Shown in pieces: positions 14,515-33,965 of a stretch of DNA of 33,965 nucleotides. Under the pieces are notes generated by a model, which was not told the origin of the DNA, did not search any database, and saw only the letters and a program-made list of their open reading frames with translations. Positions within the stretch are counted from its first letter, which is position 1. Each line of letters opens with the position of its first letter. A program made the translations under genes and the position numbers. Source of the stretch: Acidobacteriota bacterium (GTDB lineage: Bacteria; Acidobacteriota; Thermoanaerobaculia; Gp7-AA8); the NCBI GenBank assembly GCA_016184115.1, contig JACPDH010000060.1, forward strand, positions 1 to 33,965. Direction: 5' to 3'.

Positions 14515-14616
14515 GAATCGACAATACGGAAGTGAGAATCGAGCGATGAAAGGCGGGTCAAGCATGTCCGTGGTCAATCACTCGCTTCTCGATTCGCAGT
14601 TCTCGGTTCGCTCTTC
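14515..14616. repeat. Paired heptad arrays (element 4)
   Basis: Left: GAA at 14515, CAA at 14522, GAA at 14529 and 14536. Right: TTC at 14586, 14593, 14600, 14607 and 14614, exactly every 7 nt. The right array ends 16 nt before the dnaX start codon. Confidence 0.65.
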
Positions 14617-19575: not shown

Positions 19576-22047
19576 TCAGCTAAGCAGCAGCTCTGCCGCC
19601 GGTTCGCGCAGGTTGTAGCTCGAGCTCATCGCGCGTCCGTACGCACCCGCGTTGGCAATGAGGAGGACATCGCCTTCGCGCGGCTCCGGCATCGCCCGCT
19701 CGCTCCCTAACAGATCGCCCGACTCGCAGATCGGGCCGACGACGGTGACTGAAGAGTCCGCCACCTCGCCTGCGCGGGAGAGGTTCACGATCTCGTGCCA
19801 GGCGCCGTAGAGCGCGGGTCGGATGAGCGAGTTCATCCCCGTGTCGACGCCCGCATAGAGCGTCTCACCCTTACCCTTCAGCTGCGTGACGGTCGTCAGC
19901 AACACACCTGCGCGCGCGACGAGATACCTCCCCGGCTCGATCCAGAGATCGAGCTTCGGCCAGGCCGATCGGAGCTCCGCGATGCCGCGGCCGATCGCAC
20001 CGAGGTCGAGCTCGGTCCCGTCGTGCGCATCGGGCACGCCGAGGCCTCCGCCAATGTCGATGATGCGAACGTCCGGAAACCGTGCGGCGAGACCGGCGAG
20101 ACGCTCGTCGAGCTCCTCCAGCGGCACGCCGAATTTCGAGAACTGTCCCGCGGTGCGCACGTGCGCGTGATGACCGCGCCCTTTGCCGAGGTCGACGCGA
20201 ACGAAGAGCTTGCGGTCGCGGAACAGTTCGGGCCACGCGCGCATCGGATGCAGGTTGTCGAGCGTCAGACGGATCCCGCGCTCGAGCGCGTCCGCGTATT
20301 CGTGACGCGGGGCGAAGTTAGGCGTGAAGAGGATCCGATCGAGATCGATCCCAGGAATCAGCTCGAGCACGCGCGCGACCTCCCCGGGCGATACACACTC
20401 GAAGCCGATCCCCGCGCGCTCGAAGCGTTGCAGGATTCCTGGGTGAGGGTTCGCCTTCATCGCGAAGAGGACGCGGTCGATTCCGTCGATGGCGCGAACT
20501 CGTGCCGCGGCCTCGTCGAGCGACCGGCCATCGTAGACATACCGCGGGCTCGCCTCGCGCGCGACCTCGAGTAGTTCCTGCCGGCGCTGCATCCACCACG
20601 GCTCCGATGCAGCGACGGTATCAGTTGCCCCTTCGGAGAGCTCGCGCCACGTCGGCCCGAAGACCGACGCACGCCGTCCGATGAGCAAATGGTGAAGGTC
20701 GCGCGCGAGTCGTTCCGCGTCGCCCTCGTCGACGACAAACGAAAGATTCAGGTCGCTCGCAGCCTGCGAAACGAGGTGGAGACGCAACTCGGAGAAGATC
20801 TCGAGCGCAGGACCGAGCCTGGGGAGGATCGAGCGGATGCGGCGGCCGACGAGGCTGACCGCAGCGCAGCCGGTCACGAAGCTGGCGCGGCAGAGCGGCG
20901 CAAGATCGGCCGCAAGCCCGTCGAGCACTCCAGGCGTGATCGCATTCGCCGTCGGATCGAGCGTCACGGTGACGTTCGTCTCCGAGGTCGATACGAGGTC
21001 GATCGAGAGTCCTCGTCTCTTGAAGCACTCGAACGCGTCGGCAAGGAAGCCAACCTGCTGCCACATGCCGATCGTCTCCATCGACACGAGCGTGATCCCT
21101 TGTTTCACCGACACCGCCTTCACCTGCGGCACGTCGGCGCCGACGGGGCCTATCACTGTTCCGGCAAAGCCTGGACGGCCGGTGCAGAGCACGCGGAGCG
21201 GAATCTTTTGCGCGCGTGCCGGAGCGATGGCGCGCGGATGGAGCACTTTCGCTCCGGTCGTCGCGATCTCCTGTGCCTCGTCATAGTCGAGGTGCTCGAG
21301 AAGGCGTGCGTCGGGAACGACGCGCGGGTCGGCAGAGAACATGCCCGGAACGTCGGTCCAGATCTCGACGCGCCTGGCAGAGAGCTTGGCGCCGAAGTAC
21401 GACGCGGAGGTGTCAGACCCGCCACGCCCGAGGATCACGGTCTCGCCGTTTGCATTGCTCGCAATGAAGCCTTGCGTCACGAGAAGCGAACCGCGCAGCG
21501 CCATCCTTTCGTCGAGCGCCGGGTCGGCATCGAATGCGCACTGCGCCGAAAGGAAGAGGCTCGCGTCGCTCGCGTTCCTGGCTGGCGTCGATACGAGTAG
21601 CTCGCGCGCGTCGACCCATACGGCAGGGAGGCCGCGCGACTCGAGGTAGGCGGCGCCTAGTCTGGTCGCCATGATCTCGCCTAACGCCATCAGCCGCGCA
21701 TGGATGCGCGGACTCGCTTCGCCGAGTAATTGAATCCCCGTGGCAATCTGGCGGAGCTCGGCGAATTCGTGCCCGAGGAGTGCGTCGGCATCGACGCCGA
21801 GGCCGGCGGCGAGCGTCCGGTGCGCCGACTCGATCGCGTCGAGTGACTCGGAAAGATCCTCCGACGCGGCGCGCGTCGCGATTGATTCGAGGCGGTTCGA
21901 GATTCCTGCGAGTGCGGAGTGAACGACGAGGACGCGCTCCCCTTCCCGTATCGCATTGGTGGCCGTCTCCGCGATGAACGCCCAGTTCGGCGCCGTCGAC
22001 ACGCTCGTGCCGCCAAACTTCAGGACGATCCAGCCGGGGGACGACAT
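19576..22047 (-). CDS. lysAC: Bifunctional aspartate kinase / diaminopimelate decarboxylase
   Basis: The protein has 823 residues and fuses the first and last dedicated steps of lysine synthesis. The N-terminal half is aspartokinase (VLKFGGTSV at residue 8, FIASNANGETVILGRGGSD, then ACT domains near 310-450 with SVKQGITLVSMET). The C-terminal half, from about 500, is a PLP-dependent alanine-racemase-fold decarboxylase (AMKANPHPGIL with the PLP Lys, IDIGGGLGVPD, EPGRYLVARAG, GPICESGDLL). I place the start at 22047, where the aspartokinase begins. The frame is open to 22251, but that extension translates the heptad repeat. No Shine-Dalgarno precedes this ATG. Similar fusions are known in Xanthomonadaceae. 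No other lys gene is present nearby. Confidence 0.95.
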   Translation of the reverse strand: MSSPGWIVLKFGGTSVSTAPNWAFIAETATNAIREGERVLVVHSALAGISNRLESIATRAASEDLSESLDAIESAHRTLAAGLGVDADALLGHEFAELRQIATGIQLLGEASPRIHARLMALGEIMATRLGAAYLESRGLPAVWVDARELLVSTPARNASDASLFLSAQCAFDADPALDERMALRGSLLVTQGFIASNANGETVILGRGGSDTSASYFGAKLSARRVEIWTDVPGMFSADPRVVPDARLLEHLDYDEAQEIATTGAKVLHPRAIAPARAQKIPLRVLCTGRPGFAGTVIGPVGADVPQVKAVSVKQGITLVSMETIGMWQQVGFLADAFECFKRRGLSIDLVSTSETNVTVTLDPTANAITPGVLDGLAADLAPLCRASFVTGCAAVSLVGRRIRSILPRLGPALEIFSELRLHLVSQAASDLNLSFVVDEGDAERLARDLHHLLIGRRASVFGPTWRELSEGATDTVAASEPWWMQRRQELLEVAREASPRYVYDGRSLDEAAARVRAIDGIDRVLFAMKANPHPGILQRFERAGIGFECVSPGEVARVLELIPGIDLDRILFTPNFAPRHEYADALERGIRLTLDNLHPMRAWPELFRDRKLFVRVDLGKGRGHHAHVRTAGQFSKFGVPLEELDERLAGLAARFPDVRIIDIGGGLGVPDAHDGTELDLGAIGRGIAELRSAWPKLDLWIEPGRYLVARAGVLLTTVTQLKGKGETLYAGVDTGMNSLIRPALYGAWHEIVNLSRAGEVADSSVTVVGPICESGDLLGSERAMPEPREGDVLLIANAGAYGRAMSSSYNLREPAAELLLS

Positions 22048-22071
22048 GCTTTGGGGGGAGAGGATAGCTCG

Positions 22072-22270
22072 GAAGTACCGAATGCGGAATGCGGAATGCG
22101 GAATGCGGAAACCGAAATGAAAAGTGAAAAGGTAAGGCTGACTCGCGAAGCGTGAAGCGCGTCGTTCAGTGCACTCGAGCCCGCCGATGCGGCACTTCGT
22201 CGCTTCCCATTCCTCACTAGGCATTCTTGGTTTCAGATTCCCCTTCCGCACTCCGCATTCCGCATTCCAT
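22072..22270. repeat. Paired heptad arrays (element 6) between lysAC and yciH
   Basis: Left: GAA at 22080, 22087, 22094, 22101 and 22108 (unit GAATGCG four times in tandem), then less regular GAA at 22119 and 22126. Right: TTC at 22210, 22224, 22232, 22238, 22244, 22258 and 22265, period mostly 7 with ATTCCGC-type units that are the reverse complement of the left unit. It spans most of the 242-nt gap between the divergent starts, so both promoters lie in or beside it. Confidence 0.75.
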
Positions 22271-24215: not shown

Positions 24216-25628
24216 ATGTCCAATAAGCCGTACGATCTCGTTGTCATCGGTGCAGGACCGGCGGGAGTGTCGGGAGCCGCGACCGCGGCCTCATTCGGGC
24301 GGCGCGTCGCACTGATCGAGCGCGACCCTGCTATCGGTGGTGCCGGAATCAATACCGGCACGATTCCATCGAAAACGCTTCGAGAGACGGCGCTCACGCT
24401 TTCGGGGATCCGAGCCCGAAAGCTGCAGATCGACCTCGTGCTGCGGCAGGAAGCGACGATCGCCGACCTGATGCGGCACGAGCGATCAGTGACCGAAAGC
24501 GCGCGCAATCTCCAGCTTCACCGCCTCCGCCATTTCGACGTCGATCTGCTTTACGGCACCGCGAGCTTCGTCGAGCCACACACGGTCAAGGTTAGTCTGC
24601 GCGGAGGAAGCGAGCTGCTGCTCCGCGCAACGAATTTCCTCATCGCGTGCGGCTCCTCGCCTTACCGCCCTCCCGAGTTCCCGTTCGAGGATGACCGCAT
24701 TCACGACTCGGACGAGATTCTCGACCTGGGGAGAATTCCACGAAGTCTCGCGGTCATCGGTGCCGGGGTGATCGGCTGCGAGTACGCATGCACGTTTGCG
24801 GCGCTCGGAACGCGCGTCTGGCTCATCGACAGCCGCTCCGAACTGATGCCGTTTCTCGATCGAGACGTCGCCCGGACGCTCGAGCTCGCGATGGAGCACA
24901 ACGGCGTCGAGCTCGTCTGGAACGAGAAGGTCGCCTCCTGCTCCACTCCCGATGGCGACGAGGTGGTTCTCACCCTCTCCTCGGGACGGAAGATCTTCGC
25001 CGAAGGTGTTCTCGTCGCAGCGGGCCGTACGAGCAACACCGACTCGCTCAATCTTGCGGCCGCAGGCATCAGCCCCGGAAAGCGTGGCGTTTTGAGCGTC
25101 AACGCCTCGTACGAAACGGAAGCTCCTCATATCTACGCCGCGGGCGACGTCATCGGCTTCCCCGCGCTCGCATCGACGAGCATCGAGCAGGCGCGCGTCG
25201 CGATCTGTCACGCGTTCAATCTCGGCTTCGAGAACGAGCTCCCTCACCTTCTGCCGGCCGGCATCTACACGATCCCGGAGGTCAGCGCCCTCGGTGAGAC
25301 CGAGCAGTCACTCAGAGAGCTTGGCATCGAGTACGTCGTTGGCCGCGCGACGTTCATGGATAACCCTCGCGGCAAGATCATCGGCGAAGAGACGGGCTTT
25401 CTGAAACTGATCTTCCGTGCCGACGATATGAAGCTCCTCGGGGCACACGTGATCGGCGAGGAGGCCACGGAGTTGATTCACATCGGCCTCATGGCGATGC
25501 TCTCCGGGTCGGGCGCCGACCTGTTCAATCAGGCCTGCTTCAACTACCCGACCCTTGGCGACCTCTACAAATACGCCACGTACGACGCGATGATGCGAAG
25601 AGAGATGTTGCGAGGAGGACGGGACTGA
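24216..25628 (+). CDS. sthA: Soluble pyridine nucleotide transhydrogenase-like flavoprotein
   Basis: The protein has 470 residues in the class I pyridine nucleotide-disulfide oxidoreductase fold. It has the FAD-binding GAGPAGVSGA, the second GxGxxG at GAGVIGCEYA, the FAD contact YAAGDVIG and a C-terminal dimerisation domain. The motif after the first FAD strand reads GGAGINTGTIPSKTLRE. The GTIPSK form marks transhydrogenases rather than lipoamide dehydrogenase, but here even the first Cys position is Gly, so no redox disulfide is possible. It should exchange hydride between NADPH and NAD. The presence of both NAD- and NADP-type glutamate dehydrogenases in the window fits a need for cofactor balancing, which is my inference. 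Confidence 0.88.
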   Translation: MSNKPYDLVVIGAGPAGVSGAATAASFGRRVALIERDPAIGGAGINTGTIPSKTLRETALTLSGIRARKLQIDLVLRQEATIADLMRHERSVTESARNLQLHRLRHFDVDLLYGTASFVEPHTVKVSLRGGSELLLRATNFLIACGSSPYRPPEFPFEDDRIHDSDEILDLGRIPRSLAVIGAGVIGCEYACTFAALGTRVWLIDSRSELMPFLDRDVARTLELAMEHNGVELVWNEKVASCSTPDGDEVVLTLSSGRKIFAEGVLVAAGRTSNTDSLNLAAAGISPGKRGVLSVNASYETEAPHIYAAGDVIGFPALASTSIEQARVAICHAFNLGFENELPHLLPAGIYTIPEVSALGETEQSLRELGIEYVVGRATFMDNPRGKIIGEETGFLKLIFRADDMKLLGAHVIGEEATELIHIGLMAMLSGSGADLFNQACFNYPTLGDLYKYATYDAMMRREMLRGGRD

Positions 25629-25634
25629 GAGAAC

Positions 25635-25727
25635 GGCCGAAGTGAGAACGCTGAACGCTGAATTGTGAATCCAGAAGGGAAGCGTTTCTGGATTCACAAT
25701 TCAGCGTTCAGCGTTCTCACTTCGGCT
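25635..25727. repeat. Perfect 38-bp inverted repeat made of heptads (element 7), probable bidirectional terminator
   Basis: The arms 25637-25674 and 25688-25725 are perfect reverse complements with a 13-nt loop. GAA occurs at 25639, 25646, 25653, 25660 and 25667, and TTC at 25693, 25700, 25707, 25714 and 25721. Outer pairs G25636-C25726 and G25635-T25727 extend it. CTTTTCT follows on the plus strand. It lies between the convergent ends of sthA and the VWFA gene. Confidence 0.92.
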
Positions 25728-25780
25728 TTTCTCCTCGATCCGTAGAGCGACCCAGCCGCCTACGGTTCGTCGCTTTGACA

Positions 25781-27565
25781 TCAAGGGATGTACCCTCGGA
25801 TCGTCCGTACGACGGCCCCTTCCTTCTTCACCTTCACCGCCACGGTACGATAGGCGCCGTCGCTCTTCGAGGCCTCCGCATAGTAGCCGACGAGGTATTG
25901 CGAGCGCAGGTCGCGTTCGAGCTTGTCATAGGTGTCGGTGAGCCCGTCGACGTTCTTCACGAAGTAGACGACGGCGCCGGTCTCAGCGGCGAGGTTCTTG
26001 ATCGCCGAGGAACCAAGCGAGGAGATTCCGATCGCGATGAAGTAGACGGGCACGCGCGCGGTTCGCACGTACTGCAACATGTCGTTGTACTTCAATCGCG
26101 ATACGGTGTCTTCGCCGTCGGTGACGATGACGAGCGCCTTCCGTCCCGGAATCGATCGAAATCGATAGAGCCCCGTGACGATGGCGTCGTAGAGCGCCGT
26201 GCCGCCATCGGGCTCCGGCATCGTCTCGATCTGACTCGTGAGCGAGCCGAGGTCGCTGAGGAACGGCGAGATGCGCTGCGTCTCCCAGGAGAATCCACCG
26301 AAGAATGCGCGATCGCCAGTCGAGAGTACGTCCTTGAAGAACGCGATTGCGGCCCCTCGTGCCACATCGATACGAGGCTTCATCGAACCGGAGTGATCGA
26401 CGAGCACTCCGATCGAAAGCGGCAGGTTCGATGCGAAGTTGAAGGTCGAGATCTTCTGCGGCTTTCCTTGTTCGAGGATGGTGAAGTCGTCCTTTTCGAG
26501 TCCCGCGATCACGACACCGGCCTTGTCGACGACGTTGACCGGCAGCTCGATGAGATTGACCTGGATCTCTTCGCCGAACCGCTGCCCGTTAAGGAAGAGG
26601 AGGTCGGATGCGAGCTCCTTTCCTTCCGCATCGAGAACGACGGCTGTGATGAACTCGGCACCTTCGAGCGATTTCGTAGGCAGCGAGATCGCGTAGGGCC
26701 CGCGGCTCCATTCCGCGATGCGGCGACTCCCCGCGTCGAGCGTGACTTTCGCGATCGCGGTCGCCGATCCGCCATTCTGGATGCTCACTTTGATGTGCGT
26801 TAGGCCGTCGGGCGTCGCATTCCTGGTCAATTTCGCCTCGACCGGGTTGTCGCGTTCGTTGACGACCCACGCGTCAGCATCGACGAAACGCCCCTTCGGA
26901 TCGAACCCGATCGCGCGAACTTCGACGCGCCGCGGCAGGCTTCCAAGATCGAGCTCTGCCCGGTATGGGGGGCCGTTCTTGGTGAAGATCTTCTTCTCGC
27001 CGATCCAGAACTCGACCTTCTTCACTGGCGGTTCGACATCGACGTCGACGATGAAGAGGTTCGGCGCGAGGTCACGACGCGGAGGACGGATCTTCACTGC
27101 TCCCGCCGTCTCCGAAATGACGCCTTCCGCGAAGATCGCGTCGGCAGTCGCGTCGTCCGACGCGACATACGGCCGTCCCGTCTTCGCAACGTCGATCGTT
27201 GCAGACCCCTTACCGAGAATCATCGGCATCTCATTCTCGATTGGAACCAAAAGGCGAACATCGATGCCCACCGAGCCGGCCGGGAGCGTTTGGATGAATG
27301 CCCACGATCGCGATCCAGCCGGAATCTGATACCGAAACGTGCGCGCAACGACGCCAGCCTGCGCTACGGAGCCCTGAAGCTCGAGTGGCACTCCGGGCGG
27401 CGGCTCAACGCCCTCGAATGCAGCCGTCATGCGCGTCACAATTCCGCTGTCGCCGTCACCTAGCGTCTCGTGCGTAAGCTTGATCGAAGAGGGCGCAGGC
27501 CTCGCGGGCTCTGCGGATGAGGGCAACGCCAAGGCGAGCACGAGCACGACAAAGGCAGTTCGCAT
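25781..27565 (-). CDS. Secreted VWFA-domain protein, acidobacterial VWFA-related type
   Basis: The protein has 594 residues from the ATG at 27565; a GTG three codons earlier (27574) is the alternative. A signal peptide (RTAFVVLVLALALPSSA) predicts export. The middle is beta-rich, with Ig-like segments. At about residues 340-380 is the strand block VNVVDKAGVVIAGLEKDDF, and the VWA domain follows with the metal-site motif DHSGSM, GGTALYDAI and VTDGEDT. This order is what I associate with the VWFA-related family named after Acidobacteria. The role is unknown; such proteins may bind partners in the cell envelope. It is divergent from mobB, which begins under 100 nt away. Confidence 0.88.
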   Translation of the reverse strand: MRTAFVVLVLALALPSSAEPARPAPSSIKLTHETLGDGDSGIVTRMTAAFEGVEPPPGVPLELQGSVAQAGVVARTFRYQIPAGSRSWAFIQTLPAGSVGIDVRLLVPIENEMPMILGKGSATIDVAKTGRPYVASDDATADAIFAEGVISETAGAVKIRPPRRDLAPNLFIVDVDVEPPVKKVEFWIGEKKIFTKNGPPYRAELDLGSLPRRVEVRAIGFDPKGRFVDADAWVVNERDNPVEAKLTRNATPDGLTHIKVSIQNGGSATAIAKVTLDAGSRRIAEWSRGPYAISLPTKSLEGAEFITAVVLDAEGKELASDLLFLNGQRFGEEIQVNLIELPVNVVDKAGVVIAGLEKDDFTILEQGKPQKISTFNFASNLPLSIGVLVDHSGSMKPRIDVARGAAIAFFKDVLSTGDRAFFGGFSWETQRISPFLSDLGSLTSQIETMPEPDGGTALYDAIVTGLYRFRSIPGRKALVIVTDGEDTVSRLKYNDMLQYVRTARVPVYFIAIGISSLGSSAIKNLAAETGAVVYFVKNVDGLTDTYDKLERDLRSQYLVGYYAEASKSDGAYRTVAVKVKKEGAVVRTIRGYIP

Positions 27566-27658: not shown

Positions 27659-28156
27659 ATGCGCAGCACTATCGGGATCATCGGATTCTCACGCTCGGGC
27701 AAGACGACTCTCGCGGTCGCTCTCGTGCGCCACTTCGCCGCGCGCGGCGAGCGTGTCGCATACGTCAAGCATACGCATCACGCCGTCGGTGCGCTCGGCG
27801 ACGAGGGAGACACGCACCTCGCTCGCCTCGCTGGCGCTTCGGTCGTCGTCGCAGCAGACGAGGTAGTCTCGGTCGAGTGGAACGCCGGCGGGCAGATGAG
27901 TGCCCCTGAGCCTTACGATGATCCCGCGATCCTCGTGGGATCGATCGACGCGGACCTCGTCGTCGTCGAGGGCTGGAAGGACCTGCGCCTTTGGCCCGTG
28001 ATCCTCGTGGAACGCGCGGGGATCGAGCGCCTTCGCCCGGCTCCCGCGATTGTTGCGGTTGTCAGCGACACCGAGAGCGAGCTTCCGGTCCCACGCTTCG
28101 CGCCCGACGACCTCGCCGGGATCGCGCGCTTTGTCGATAGAATCGCGAGCGTTTGA
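27659..28156 (+). CDS. mobB: MobB-like molybdopterin-guanine dinucleotide biosynthesis adaptor
   Basis: The protein has 165 residues from the ATG at 27659. A TTG at 27590 would add 23 residues ahead of the first strand and is unlikely. The P-loop is GFSRSGKTT, followed by YVKHTHHAV and DLVVVEGWKDL, the conserved MobB blocks. It is a GTP-binding partner of MobA in adding GMP to molybdopterin. No other molybdenum cofactor genes are in the window, so it is separated from its pathway. The stop overlaps the next start as TGATG, implying coupling. Confidence 0.9.
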   Translation: MRSTIGIIGFSRSGKTTLAVALVRHFAARGERVAYVKHTHHAVGALGDEGDTHLARLAGASVVVAADEVVSVEWNAGGQMSAPEPYDDPAILVGSIDADLVVVEGWKDLRLWPVILVERAGIERLRPAPAIVAVVSDTESELPVPRFAPDDLAGIARFVDRIASV

Positions 28157-29466
28157 TGCGCTATGACACGTTGATCCTCGACCTCGACGGCACGCTCGTC
28201 GACTCCTACGACGCGCTCGCGATTGCCGTGAACCATGCGCGCCAGCATCTCGGCTTTCCCGCGCTCGACAGTGAGAAGATCAAAGGCTTCGTTGGCGATG
28301 GGCTCGAGACTCTTCTCGAGCGCGTCTTTGCTCCCTTACCGGTGCCGTCTCATGCGCGCGAGCTCTTCGAGGAACGCTACGACGCGGTCTGCTGCGCCGA
28401 GTCGCGTCCGCTCGACGGCGTCATTGAAACACTCGCGACGCTTCACGCCCTCGGCGTCCGAATGGCCGTCTGCACGAACAAACCGACGTCGTTCTCCGTG
28501 AAGATCGTCGAACATCTCGGAATCGACCGCTACCTCGACGCCGTCGTCGGACCCGACGTCGCGGGTGCGCGAAAGCCCGACGCGCGTCACGTCGAGGCTG
28601 CACTCGCCGCTGCCGGCGGTTCTCGCGACGCAGCGCTCTTCGTCGGCGACATGCTGGTCGACGTCGACGCGGCTCGGAACGCCGGAATCGCGTGCGCCGT
28701 CGTCGCGACGGGAGCGACGGGAATCGACGTGCTCCGCCGCTCCCAGGCGCGCCACCTGCTCCGCCGCTTTGCCGACCTCGTCGGCGTCGTTACAGGAACG
28801 TCCCGGCGGCGTGGGCCGATGCCCGGCACGCGACTCATCTTCTTCGACGCCGATTCGACACTCGCGGCGATCGAGGGCATCGATGAGCTCGCAGGCGGCA
28901 GCGTGGAGATCGCTGCGCTCACCACCGCGGCGATGAATGGCGAGGTCGCGCTCGGCGAAGTTTACGCGCGACGATTGGAGCTCTTGAGGCCCTCGCGGGG
29001 AGCGGTGGACGAGCTCAGTCGGCGCTACCTCGACACGATGATTCCCGATGCGCCGGAGACGATGGAGGCGCTGCGTGCCGCCGGAATGGAGATCTTCATC
29101 GTGTCGGGAGGCTTCGAGCAGGCGATTCTTCCGCTCGCGGAGAAACTCGGCATCCCGCAGCGGTGCGTTCATGCGGTCCGGCTGGAATTCGACGTTGCGG
29201 GTAACTACGCCGGCTTCGATCGGAGCTCGCCGCTGACGCGAAATGGCGGGAAGGAGACGGTCGTCATGAACGTCCGCGCTCGCTCGAAAGGGAAGGCGGT
29301 GTTCATCGGCGACGGCATCACCGATCTCGAAGCGAAGCCGGCGGTCGAGCTCTTCATCGGCTTTGGCGGCGTCGCGCGGCGCGAACGCGTCTGCGGCGAG
29401 GCCGACGTCTATCTCACGGAACCGCGCCTCACCGCGATTTTGCCACATATTATATTAAAGAAATAA
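28156..29466 (+). CDS. serB: Tandem HAD phosphatases: phosphoglycolate phosphatase-like + phosphoserine phosphatase (SerB)
   Basis: The protein has 436 residues holding two HAD-superfamily phosphatases in one frame. Residues 1-210 resemble Gph: DLDGTLVDS (D9, D11), GFVGDGLETLL, CTNKP, RKPDARH and FVGDMLVDVDAARNAG. Residues about 222-436 match phosphoserine phosphatase of the eukaryote-like type: DADSTLAAIEGIDELAG (D231, D233), IVSGGFEQ, GGK and FIGDGITDLEA followed by FIGFGG. Both catalytic sets look intact. The second half removes phosphate from phosphoserine, the final step of serine synthesis. The SerC-like and SerA genes follow. The Gph-like half may act on 2-phosphoglycolate or another small phosphate. 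The start is fixed by the TGATG overlap with mobB. An internal ATG at 28819 could allow separate translation of the SerB half. Confidence 0.9.
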   Translation: MRYDTLILDLDGTLVDSYDALAIAVNHARQHLGFPALDSEKIKGFVGDGLETLLERVFAPLPVPSHARELFEERYDAVCCAESRPLDGVIETLATLHALGVRMAVCTNKPTSFSVKIVEHLGIDRYLDAVVGPDVAGARKPDARHVEAALAAAGGSRDAALFVGDMLVDVDAARNAGIACAVVATGATGIDVLRRSQARHLLRRFADLVGVVTGTSRRRGPMPGTRLIFFDADSTLAAIEGIDELAGGSVEIAALTTAAMNGEVALGEVYARRLELLRPSRGAVDELSRRYLDTMIPDAPETMEALRAAGMEIFIVSGGFEQAILPLAEKLGIPQRCVHAVRLEFDVAGNYAGFDRSSPLTRNGGKETVVMNVRARSKGKAVFIGDGITDLEAKPAVELFIGFGGVARRERVCGEADVYLTEPRLTAILPHIILKK

Positions 29467-29623
29467 TAATTGGTAATAATTAATATTGTAAATATCACGA
29501 CTACCCTTCGGCTACATAGTTATAAATCGTTTAAACGTACATACTCATGTCAAGCATAGCGTTACCGTAGTCGCTTATTGTTAATCGCGTAATTTTCAAT
29601 TCTCAATTCCCAATCCATACTTC
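29460..29623. repeat. Paired heptad arrays (element 8) with strongly AT-rich interior
   Basis: Left: GAA at 29460, then TAA at 29467, 29474 and 29481. Right: TTT, TTC, TTC, TCC and TTC at 29593, 29600, 29607, 29614 and 29621, ending five bases before the serC-like start. The whole 162-nt gap is far richer in A and T than its surroundings, with runs such as AATAATAATTGG. It interrupts an otherwise tight serB-serC-serA unit. Confidence 0.6.
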
Positions 29624-32326: not shown

Positions 32327-33965
32327 TCAATCCACGGCCCAGATCTGCGCGGCGTCGCCTCGCAGGCCGAACGCATACGCGACGTCCATCTCGTCCTCCC
32401 AGACGAGGTGAAACCCGCGCACCGGTGCGGGAGGCCCGATCCCGGCGATGGCTGCCTTCCCGTTCGCGAAATAGGCGCGCCACCAGAAGGTCGCCGCTGC
32501 GTCGGGACCCGCTTCGATCCATCCCGTCCCTCGCGCGTACCGGCGCTCGTCGAAACCAGCGATTCTCGCGGTCGCCGCGAGCTGCGCGATCGGGTGGTTG
32601 AGCAGGATGAATGTCACGCCACGATCGCGGCAGTAGCGTCGCAGTGCTTCGTCGTCGGCAGAGAGCAGCGCAGTCGCAGCGGCCTCTAGCTCGCCCGGCT
32701 TGCCCATCGTACCGAAGTTGTCGATCACCACTTGCCGCCCGCTGTAGAACGCGACGAGATGTCCGCGGTCCCAGGGGGCGAGCACTCGCCCGGGAGTCGT
32801 TAGGCTGCGCAGCGCGATCGCCGCGCGGATCGTTGCCTCGGTTTGCACACCAGGCGAGCGGCCGGCCGACGGGAGATAGACGAACGTTGCGATTCCGGGC
32901 GCGAGTACGACGAGAGCCGCGATCCATCCTGCCAGCCGCTTTCGCCCGGCGCGGAACTCTCCGTCGAAGGCGTACGTTCCCGCGAGCGCGATCAGCGGCA
33001 CCGACACGTAGACGAGGCGCCGGCTCGTGATCGCAAGAGCGCCGTAAGAGATCGCGAAGAGCGCGAGTGCGAGACGACTGCGCGATTCGTCTTTGCGCGC
33101 CGCGACGAAGAGAAGCACGGCCGCGACGGTCGGCGCGAGTAGAAGTGCGTCGAGCCAGATCGTCGCCCGATCGTCAAAGAAGGGACGAAACTCGTCGATC
33201 GTCGAAAGCCACCGATCTCCGCCGAAGAATCCGCCCCCCTGCCCGACGACGCTACGGATCGACGGCATGGCGGAGAGAATCACCGCAGGGAGTCCCGCCG
33301 CGACGATTGCCCGCGCGGGCCGCGGCAAGCGCCAGAGCCAAGGCGTCGCGGCGAGCGCCAGCGCAACGGCGGCGCCGCCCAGGAGAAGCGCATGTGGCAC
33401 GCCGAGGAACCAAGCGCTCTCCGGATAATCGGCGGGCAGCGTGAGCCTGTAAGCGCCAATGGCAAGCGTCGGCACCGCGAATCCAATCGCCCCTTCGACC
33501 AGTCGCGCGCGACAGGGCGCGAGAAGCAGCAACACGCCGAAGGCGACGCCGCAGCCGAGAAGCAGCGCGGTCTGTACGAAGAGTGCTGACGTGAGCACGA
33601 TGGCCAGCACGAGCGCGCGTCCCGGGCGAACCGGGCCGCTGGCGTCGCCGGCGATCCACGCGACTGTCGCCGCGATCGCCACCATCAACGGTCCCTCGGC
33701 CACATGGTGATCGAGCCGCGCGAGCTGTGAGACGAAGATCAGCGGCATCGGAACTGCGACTCCCAGCCCCGCAACCAACCCCGCGGGAGCTCCCAGTCTC
33801 CATGCGATCGCCACGCCGAGTGTCGCCGCGAAGATTGCGCCGAGCAGCGGAGCGACCCAGATCGCGACCGCGAGCGCGTCGATACCCGTGAATCCGAGCG
33901 CGCGGAGCAGACTCGCAATCGAGAAGTCCCACAGCGGAGGCCATGGACACCAGGCGCCCGTCACG
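32327..33965 (-). CDS. STT3-like multi-pass membrane glycosyltransferase (GT-C), 5' end outside window
   Basis: There are 545 residues before the edge, with no N-terminus. A GTG at 33964 is in frame, but the protein already starts inside a conserved-looking loop (PWPPLWDFSIASLL), so the true start lies beyond. About ten hydrophobic helices follow, including LDHHVAEGPL, which resembles the acidic loop motif of oligosaccharyltransferases. After the membrane part comes APWDRGHLVAFYSGRQVVIDN, reminiscent of the WWDYG block of STT3/PglB/AglB with one aromatic replaced. It could transfer a lipid-linked glycan to protein or lipid. The missing N-terminus prevents checking the first catalytic Asp. Convergent with serA, with nine bases between stops. 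Confidence 0.75.
   Translation of the reverse strand, partial: VTGAWCPWPPLWDFSIASLLRALGFTGIDALAVAIWVAPLLGAIFAATLGVAIAWRLGAPAGLVAGLGVAVPMPLIFVSQLARLDHHVAEGPLMVAIAATVAWIAGDASGPVRPGRALVLAIVLTSALFVQTALLLGCGVAFGVLLLLAPCRARLVEGAIGFAVPTLAIGAYRLTLPADYPESAWFLGVPHALLLGGAAVALALAATPWLWRLPRPARAIVAAGLPAVILSAMPSIRSVVGQGGGFFGGDRWLSTIDEFRPFFDDRATIWLDALLLAPTVAAVLLFVAARKDESRSRLALALFAISYGALAITSRRLVYVSVPLIALAGTYAFDGEFRAGRKRLAGWIAALVVLAPGIATFVYLPSAGRSPGVQTEATIRAAIALRSLTTPGRVLAPWDRGHLVAFYSGRQVVIDNFGTMGKPGELEAAATALLSADDEALRRYCRDRGVTFILLNHPIAQLAATARIAGFDERRYARGTGWIEAGPDAAATFWWRAYFANGKAAIAGIGPPAPVRGFHLVWEDEMDVAYAFGLRGDAAQIWAVD

Follow-up and report, generated by a model that had tools for sequence, protein, structure and literature searches.

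A genome-wide family of heptad-built intergenic hairpins with coupled arms in a member of the Acidobacteriota (Thermoanaerobaculia)

Contig JACPDH010000060.1 of an Acidobacteriota bacterium (assembly GCA_016184115.1), analysed over its 33,965 nucleotides and referred to here as the window, contains a long perfect hairpin between two convergent genes. This hairpin belongs to a dispersed intergenic family of inverted repeats built from GAANNNN heptads, whose two arms are coupled and which, unlike plain heptad arrays, are placed at stop codons and avoid divergent gaps. The same gap in the sister species often carries a heptad hairpin as well, more often one of another heptad type. It is about evenly balanced whether the window hairpin is a gene-end element of a family-wide class, probably a bidirectional transcript-end structure, with arms rematched by arm-to-arm copying in combination with selection.

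The left arm (25636-25676, + strand) is 41 nt long and consists of GCC, the heptads GAAGTGA, GAACGCT, GAACGCT, GAATTGT and GAATCCA, and a closing GAA. A 9-nt loop (GGGAAGCGT, 25677-25685) separates it from the right arm (25686-25726, - strand), its perfect reverse complement, with 41 bp matched and no mismatch. Past two mismatches, positions 25629-25633 pair with 25729-25733, so the stem extends to 48 bp (25629-25733) when two mismatches are allowed. A sequence-only reading of this DNA had described a perfect 38-bp hairpin at 25635-25727 with five mutually different heptads per arm; the hairpin is real, its coordinates were off by no more than a base or two and the count of five holds, but the arms are slightly longer and GAACGCT occurs twice. 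On the + strand, the stem is followed by TTTTCTCC (25727-25734), with five T in eight nucleotides, whereas the tail on the - strand, CGTTCTCT, is weaker. The RNA fold reaches -95.8 kcal/mol, whereas dinucleotide shuffles give -34.6 +/- 3.8 (z = -16.2), and the DNA fold has a z of -15.1, a stability far outside chance in both cases. No Rfam model matched the hairpin at the gathering score; below it, only microRNA and snoRNA models appeared, and the microRNA-type matches are an artefact that any long perfect stem would give. A terminator scan with a loop limit of 8 nt holds no entry for this hairpin, whose loop has 9 nt.

The hairpin lies near the ends of both neighboring genes and directly past the stop codon of the upstream one (24216-25628, + strand), which ends just ahead of the stem and encodes an SthA/dihydrolipoamide-dehydrogenase-like FAD/NAD protein. 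The convergent gene (25781-27565, - strand) encodes a VWFA-domain-like protein; both names come from reading the translations only. The assignment of the organism to Thermoanaerobaculia follows the label of the closest named genome, whose SthA-like protein is 82% identical.

Other features of the window were recorded alongside. A plain heptad array, (GAATGCG)n at 22080-22119, lies close to the start of a - strand gene (19576-22224) that reads as an aspartokinase and diaminopimelate-decarboxylase-like fusion, and the longer start of this open reading frame adds a spurious repeat N-terminus (IPHSAFRI...) derived from the array. Further arrays without a near partner arm are found at 2528-2580, 14581-14616 and 29591-29614. 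The single open reading frame at 28153-29466 reads as a HAD phosphatase fusion, phosphoglycolate-phosphatase-like and then phosphoserine-phosphatase-like, and is followed by aminotransferase-like and then 3-phosphoglycerate-dehydrogenase-like genes.

A search with the hairpin DNA found about 40 other sites in its own genome (G000). This genome was sampled over 1.04 Mb, taken in pieces, with later contigs partly picked for having matches, a choice that biases element density upward and should leave placement and arm statistics unaffected. A simple script based on a codon model called 836 genes in it and put the coding share at 88%. In this sample of about 1.04 Mb, 51 elements of the type found in the window (type I, arrays and inverted repeats both listed) were found, all of them intergenic and none inside a gene. 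Their arm consensus is GAAGTKA GAACGTA GAACGAT GAANNNN GAAYCCA GAA, with GAACGTA or GAAGTTA as the second heptad and GAACGAT or GAACGCT as the third. The GAA start is nearly invariant, preferred sequences occur at heptads 1, 3 and 5, and heptad 4 is the most variable. The window hairpin is an ordinary member of this genome-wide family. Its arms are perfect, as the sequence-only reading had stressed in calling it the clearest member, but 5 of the 40 scored type I elements are equally perfect at the variable arm positions, and the suggestion that it shows how an element is born finds no support.

The seven-nucleotide period is almost exclusive. Five GAA at 7-nt spacing gave 261 + 206 matches in the same genome, while the pattern written backwards gave 9 + 10, overlapping matches being counted. 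Among intergenic tandem-like arrays with periods from 4 to 21, period 7 accounts for 105, its multiples 14 and 21 come next, and each of the remaining periods is represented at most 4 times; the coding DNA of the 1.04 Mb sample is without a period-7 peak. Within the arms of long inverted repeats, identity at lag 7 is 0.42-0.60, against mostly 0.16-0.31 at other lags (lag 14, a multiple of 7, excepted).

Two palindrome families with other sequences occur in the same genome. The first, of non-heptad type and TGTCATCCTGAGCGAAGCGAAGGATCTCGCAGG-like, is found at G000:C78:68513-68619, C57:206-337 and C81:63256-63372. The second, GGGGTCACACC(G/T)AAAGT..., is found at G000:C112:38546-38624, C78:55610-55688 and C29:15534-15611, and at the start of contig C466 in the sister species G001 (L145).

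The coupling of the two arms is real but loose. Across 40 elements, arms agree with their own partner at 78% of variable heptad positions, whereas arms of different elements agree at 63%; 10,000 arm permutations gave a mean of 62.9% (sd 1.7%) and a maximum of 69.6%. In a gapless alignment of 32 elements, in which the variable loop was swapped for a fixed spacer, 91.7% of stem cells are paired, and both sides have changed in 86 cells. Shuffles gave 33.4 +/- 4.5 such cells (0 of 500 reached the observed value), a contrast that relatedness among elements can inflate; slid controls gave at most 22. The claim that the arms do not evolve independently is thus upheld. An RNA-wobble signature of selection on the stem was looked for and rejected: mismatches in tandem-gap elements, read in the transcribed direction, comprise 17 G-U, 13 A-C and 52 others, and since G-U is not enriched over A-C, RNA-level selection is not visible in these data.

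The hairpins are placed toward the ends of genes. In tandem gaps, their mean relative position is 0.26 on a scale from stop (0) to start (1) (z = -5.2, n = 41), and the median distances are 28 nt to the stop codon and 87 nt to the start codon. Among gaps of residual length 40-199 bp, hairpins occur in 8 of 49 convergent (16%), 25 of 204 tandem (12%) and 1 of 58 divergent ones (2%). Heptad arrays outside hairpins are spread evenly instead (relative position 0.50, n = 53), with 18 of 94 in divergent gaps, and this difference in placement argues that the hairpin form may be connected with transcript ends. The stop-codon bias is repeated in G015, from another genus of the bacterial family (0.23, z = -3.35, n = 13, in a set that includes some non-heptad palindromes). 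The stretches read from two genomes of other families lacked intergenic heptad arrays altogether and had very few hairpins of this sort.

A stable hairpin just 3' of a stop codon, as a terminator would present, is found both in the window (fold z = -16.2) and as the family trend (placement z = -5.2). Support for a terminator function is only indirect and comes from this placement at stop codons. At least five T in eight nucleotides are found at 29% of stem ends in the sense direction and 19% in the antisense direction, against a background of 5%. This enrichment is not clearly directional, and its presence on both sides fits weak bidirectional termination. A strong U-tract is absent from most stems, and since most members thus lack the canonical signal, there is room for 3'-end protection or processing. 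Further observations count against a role at transcript ends: hairpins do occur in divergent gaps (6 in the paired-array set, 9 in the inverted-repeat set), in some hairpin-bearing genes the heptad hairpin is preceded by an ordinary, shorter hairpin resembling a terminator, and the sthA gap outside the genus showed no heptad hairpin among the loci read, one of which (L017) has a 22-bp GC-rich hairpin.

Comparison with the sister species G001, of the same genus, shows how these sites change. Its SthA-like protein is 82% identical, and its gap at the window's locus, partly cut by a contig end, has a type III-like heptad hairpin (left GAAATGAAGAATGAGGAATGA, right AGAATGAGGAATGGAGAATGAGGAACTGA). 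Outside this locus, the genome was probed with the gene ends adjoining 50 hairpins, and 26 gaps were readable. A GAA-heptad hairpin is present in 13 of them, of the same type in three (C30:9920, C30:11433 and C65:66033) and of other types in ten. Type II has the consensus AACAAT (outer) followed by GAATGCA GAACGCA GAATGCA ..., and type III reads GAAACCG AAATGTC GAATGAA GAATGAG .... One further gap (C25:48429) has inverted GTTGTTA heptads, and unrelated palindromes occupy several others. It is thus common for the heptads to be exchanged without loss of pairing, and the sequences would fit both rewriting in place and replacement by another copy. The sequence-only reading had proposed comparing the same gap in a relative: the window's gap holds a different heptad hairpin there, and the same-type orthologues have 3 stem positions changed in both arms but 11 changed in one arm only.

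Some gaps hold palindromes of the other kinds in the sister species. At C8:77482, G001 has a GGGGTCACACC(G/T)AAAGT... palindrome and G000 has heptads, and a palindrome CGCAGGCA(A/G)GAGTGCCTGCGCCAC is found at G001:C601 (L137) and G001:C476 (L150), in gaps that carry a heptad hairpin in G000.

At a wider scale, R2, a covariance model built on type I, matched all 18 searched genomes of the bacterial family, although two were hit weakly, with 2 and 4 matches. Of 23 other genomes in the order and class, it matched almost none. Because each palindrome is scored on both strands and the counts have a ceiling, they do not give numbers of elements. The R2 matches that were read contain genus-specific heptads, for example GAATGAA GAACGCA in G015 and GATGAAG in G004, with two loci off-centre and uninformative. 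Across the phylum, heptad arrays of any kind have a scattered distribution: they occur in 132 of 297 genomes, in many of which the pattern written backwards gives similar counts.

If the hairpins are gene-end elements, the one in the window would serve as a terminator and/or 3'-end protector for both convergent genes. In replication or repair, one arm would serve as the template for its partner through template switching within the hairpin, a published route for making and maintaining perfect stems (PMC8794818), and so the arms would be kept matching; the 7-nt internal repeat may supply many switch points that ease this. Such copying could change several bases in both arms at once, with no need for two separate steps. 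Hairpins that stay paired would be favoured for ending or protecting transcripts, and heptad types could spread between loci through recombination or the insertion of longer copies. A bolder version can be considered improbable: that one bacterial family maintains genome-wide gene-end hairpins in a 7-nt alphabet particular to each species. An active or specialised process, either 7-nt-stepped synthesis or arm-to-arm copying, would then rewrite both arms together, preserving the site and the structure but exchanging the whole sequence.

A possible, though rather doubtful, alternative is that the hairpins are neutral or selfish dispersed palindromic repeats of MITE- or REP-like kind, surviving where promoters are unharmed and with an incidental terminator role; insertions avoiding promoters would also produce the stop-codon bias. 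Type I does have a long form of about 153 bp with the ends CCAATGGCCT...AGGCCATTGG, found at G000:C19:25110-25262 (L100), and a second, similar element lies at G000:C29, ~33053-33210 (L069), with a GC-rich loop (CCCGCCCG-like) common to the long-form copies. In the gap of the latter (C29:33007), G001 has a type II hairpin, whereas G000 has a collapsed remnant of this older type II hairpin with the long-form copy (~150 bp) adjoining it. This looks like an insertion relative to G001, a probable presence/absence case, and type replacement at the same gap would fit insertion turnover too. In short-form elements such as the window hairpin, however, loops and flanks are locus-specific and whole-element copying is not visible, and target duplication has not been demonstrated. 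An origin from RAYT/REP systems was rejected: none of eight Y1_Tnp genes is flanked by a heptad hairpin, and G015 has many hairpins and no Y1_Tnp gene. No GTAG or CGTC tag at the palindrome end is common to the flanks of the 51 elements, as read by eye.

It is unlikely that the hairpins are a functionless product of mutation alone, with 7-nt replication slippage generating arrays and hairpin-templated copying turning them into palindromes. The nearly exclusive period, which includes arrays outside hairpins, speaks for this origin, as does a bacterial heptamer excess tentatively tied to the polymerase-contacted DNA segment (discussed in PMC4692102), and template switching can couple arms without selection (PMC8794818). 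Against it stand the different placement of hairpins and plain arrays, the ordered heptad set common to type I elements at many loci, which independent slippage would not produce, and the R2 matches in every searched genome of one family with almost none in the other families of the class. That the heptads are binding sites of a sequence-specific repeat protein, with the hairpin secondary, would agree with the near-invariant GAA and the position preferences but is very improbable, as the heptad set is often wholly different between species at the same gap and no candidate protein was identified.

Should the gene-end explanation with arm copying hold, these loci would be a natural record of long-stem pairing, in which the blocks are exchanged and the two arms change in concert at sites whose position and structure last. 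The origin of compensatory changes, by two-step selection or arm-to-arm copying, would be testable at many replicate loci in sister genomes, and these bacteria would have a recognisable transcript-end signal. Should it be wrong, the elements are a thoroughly documented family of dispersed repeats, one that breaks up assemblies and creates spurious open reading frames.

A search that excluded most subscription journals found no publication on these elements in Thermoanaerobaculia, but inverted heptamer repeats are a kind already known from Xanthomonas. The GGGAATC-type repeats of that genus are intergenic, have a fixed and a variable part, and form 70-75 inverted, stem-loop-capable pairs per genome, on average 28 nt from the upstream open reading frame against 160 to the downstream one, with few in divergent gaps; in two species, most of the pairs have the same genes as neighbors, although their sequence varies (PMC4692102). 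The G000 elements share the heptad period, the intergenic location and the inverted pairs near the ends of upstream open reading frames, but have a GAANNNN core without G-tracts, unlike the G-rich, quadruplex-forming GGGANTN core. The TAACTGA heptamers of Beggiatoaceae, Cyanobacteria and Bacteroidetes are likewise abundant intergenic heptamers without a known spreading mechanism, but they are arranged as direct repeats, apart from one indirect case, and most of them closely precede start codons (PMC4679880), whereas the hairpins are inverted pairs at stop codons. REP/REPIN elements with their RAYT transposases (PMC3116915, PMC3733652) are similar as high-copy, dispersed short intergenic palindromes; the stems described here are longer and heptad-built, without a GTAG/CGTC tag at the stem foot or an adjoining RAYT. 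Intergenic stem-loops at the 3' ends of coding sequences, including intrinsic terminators, show the same 3'-side concentration (PMC1590033), from which the present stems differ in being about 40 bp long, heptad-built and mostly without a strong U-tract. Beyond the Xanthomonas case, the G000 arms have five ordered heptads, and arm-coupled change and heptad-type replacement at orthologous gaps were measured; such arm-coupled replacement of heptad type at fixed sites appears to be new.
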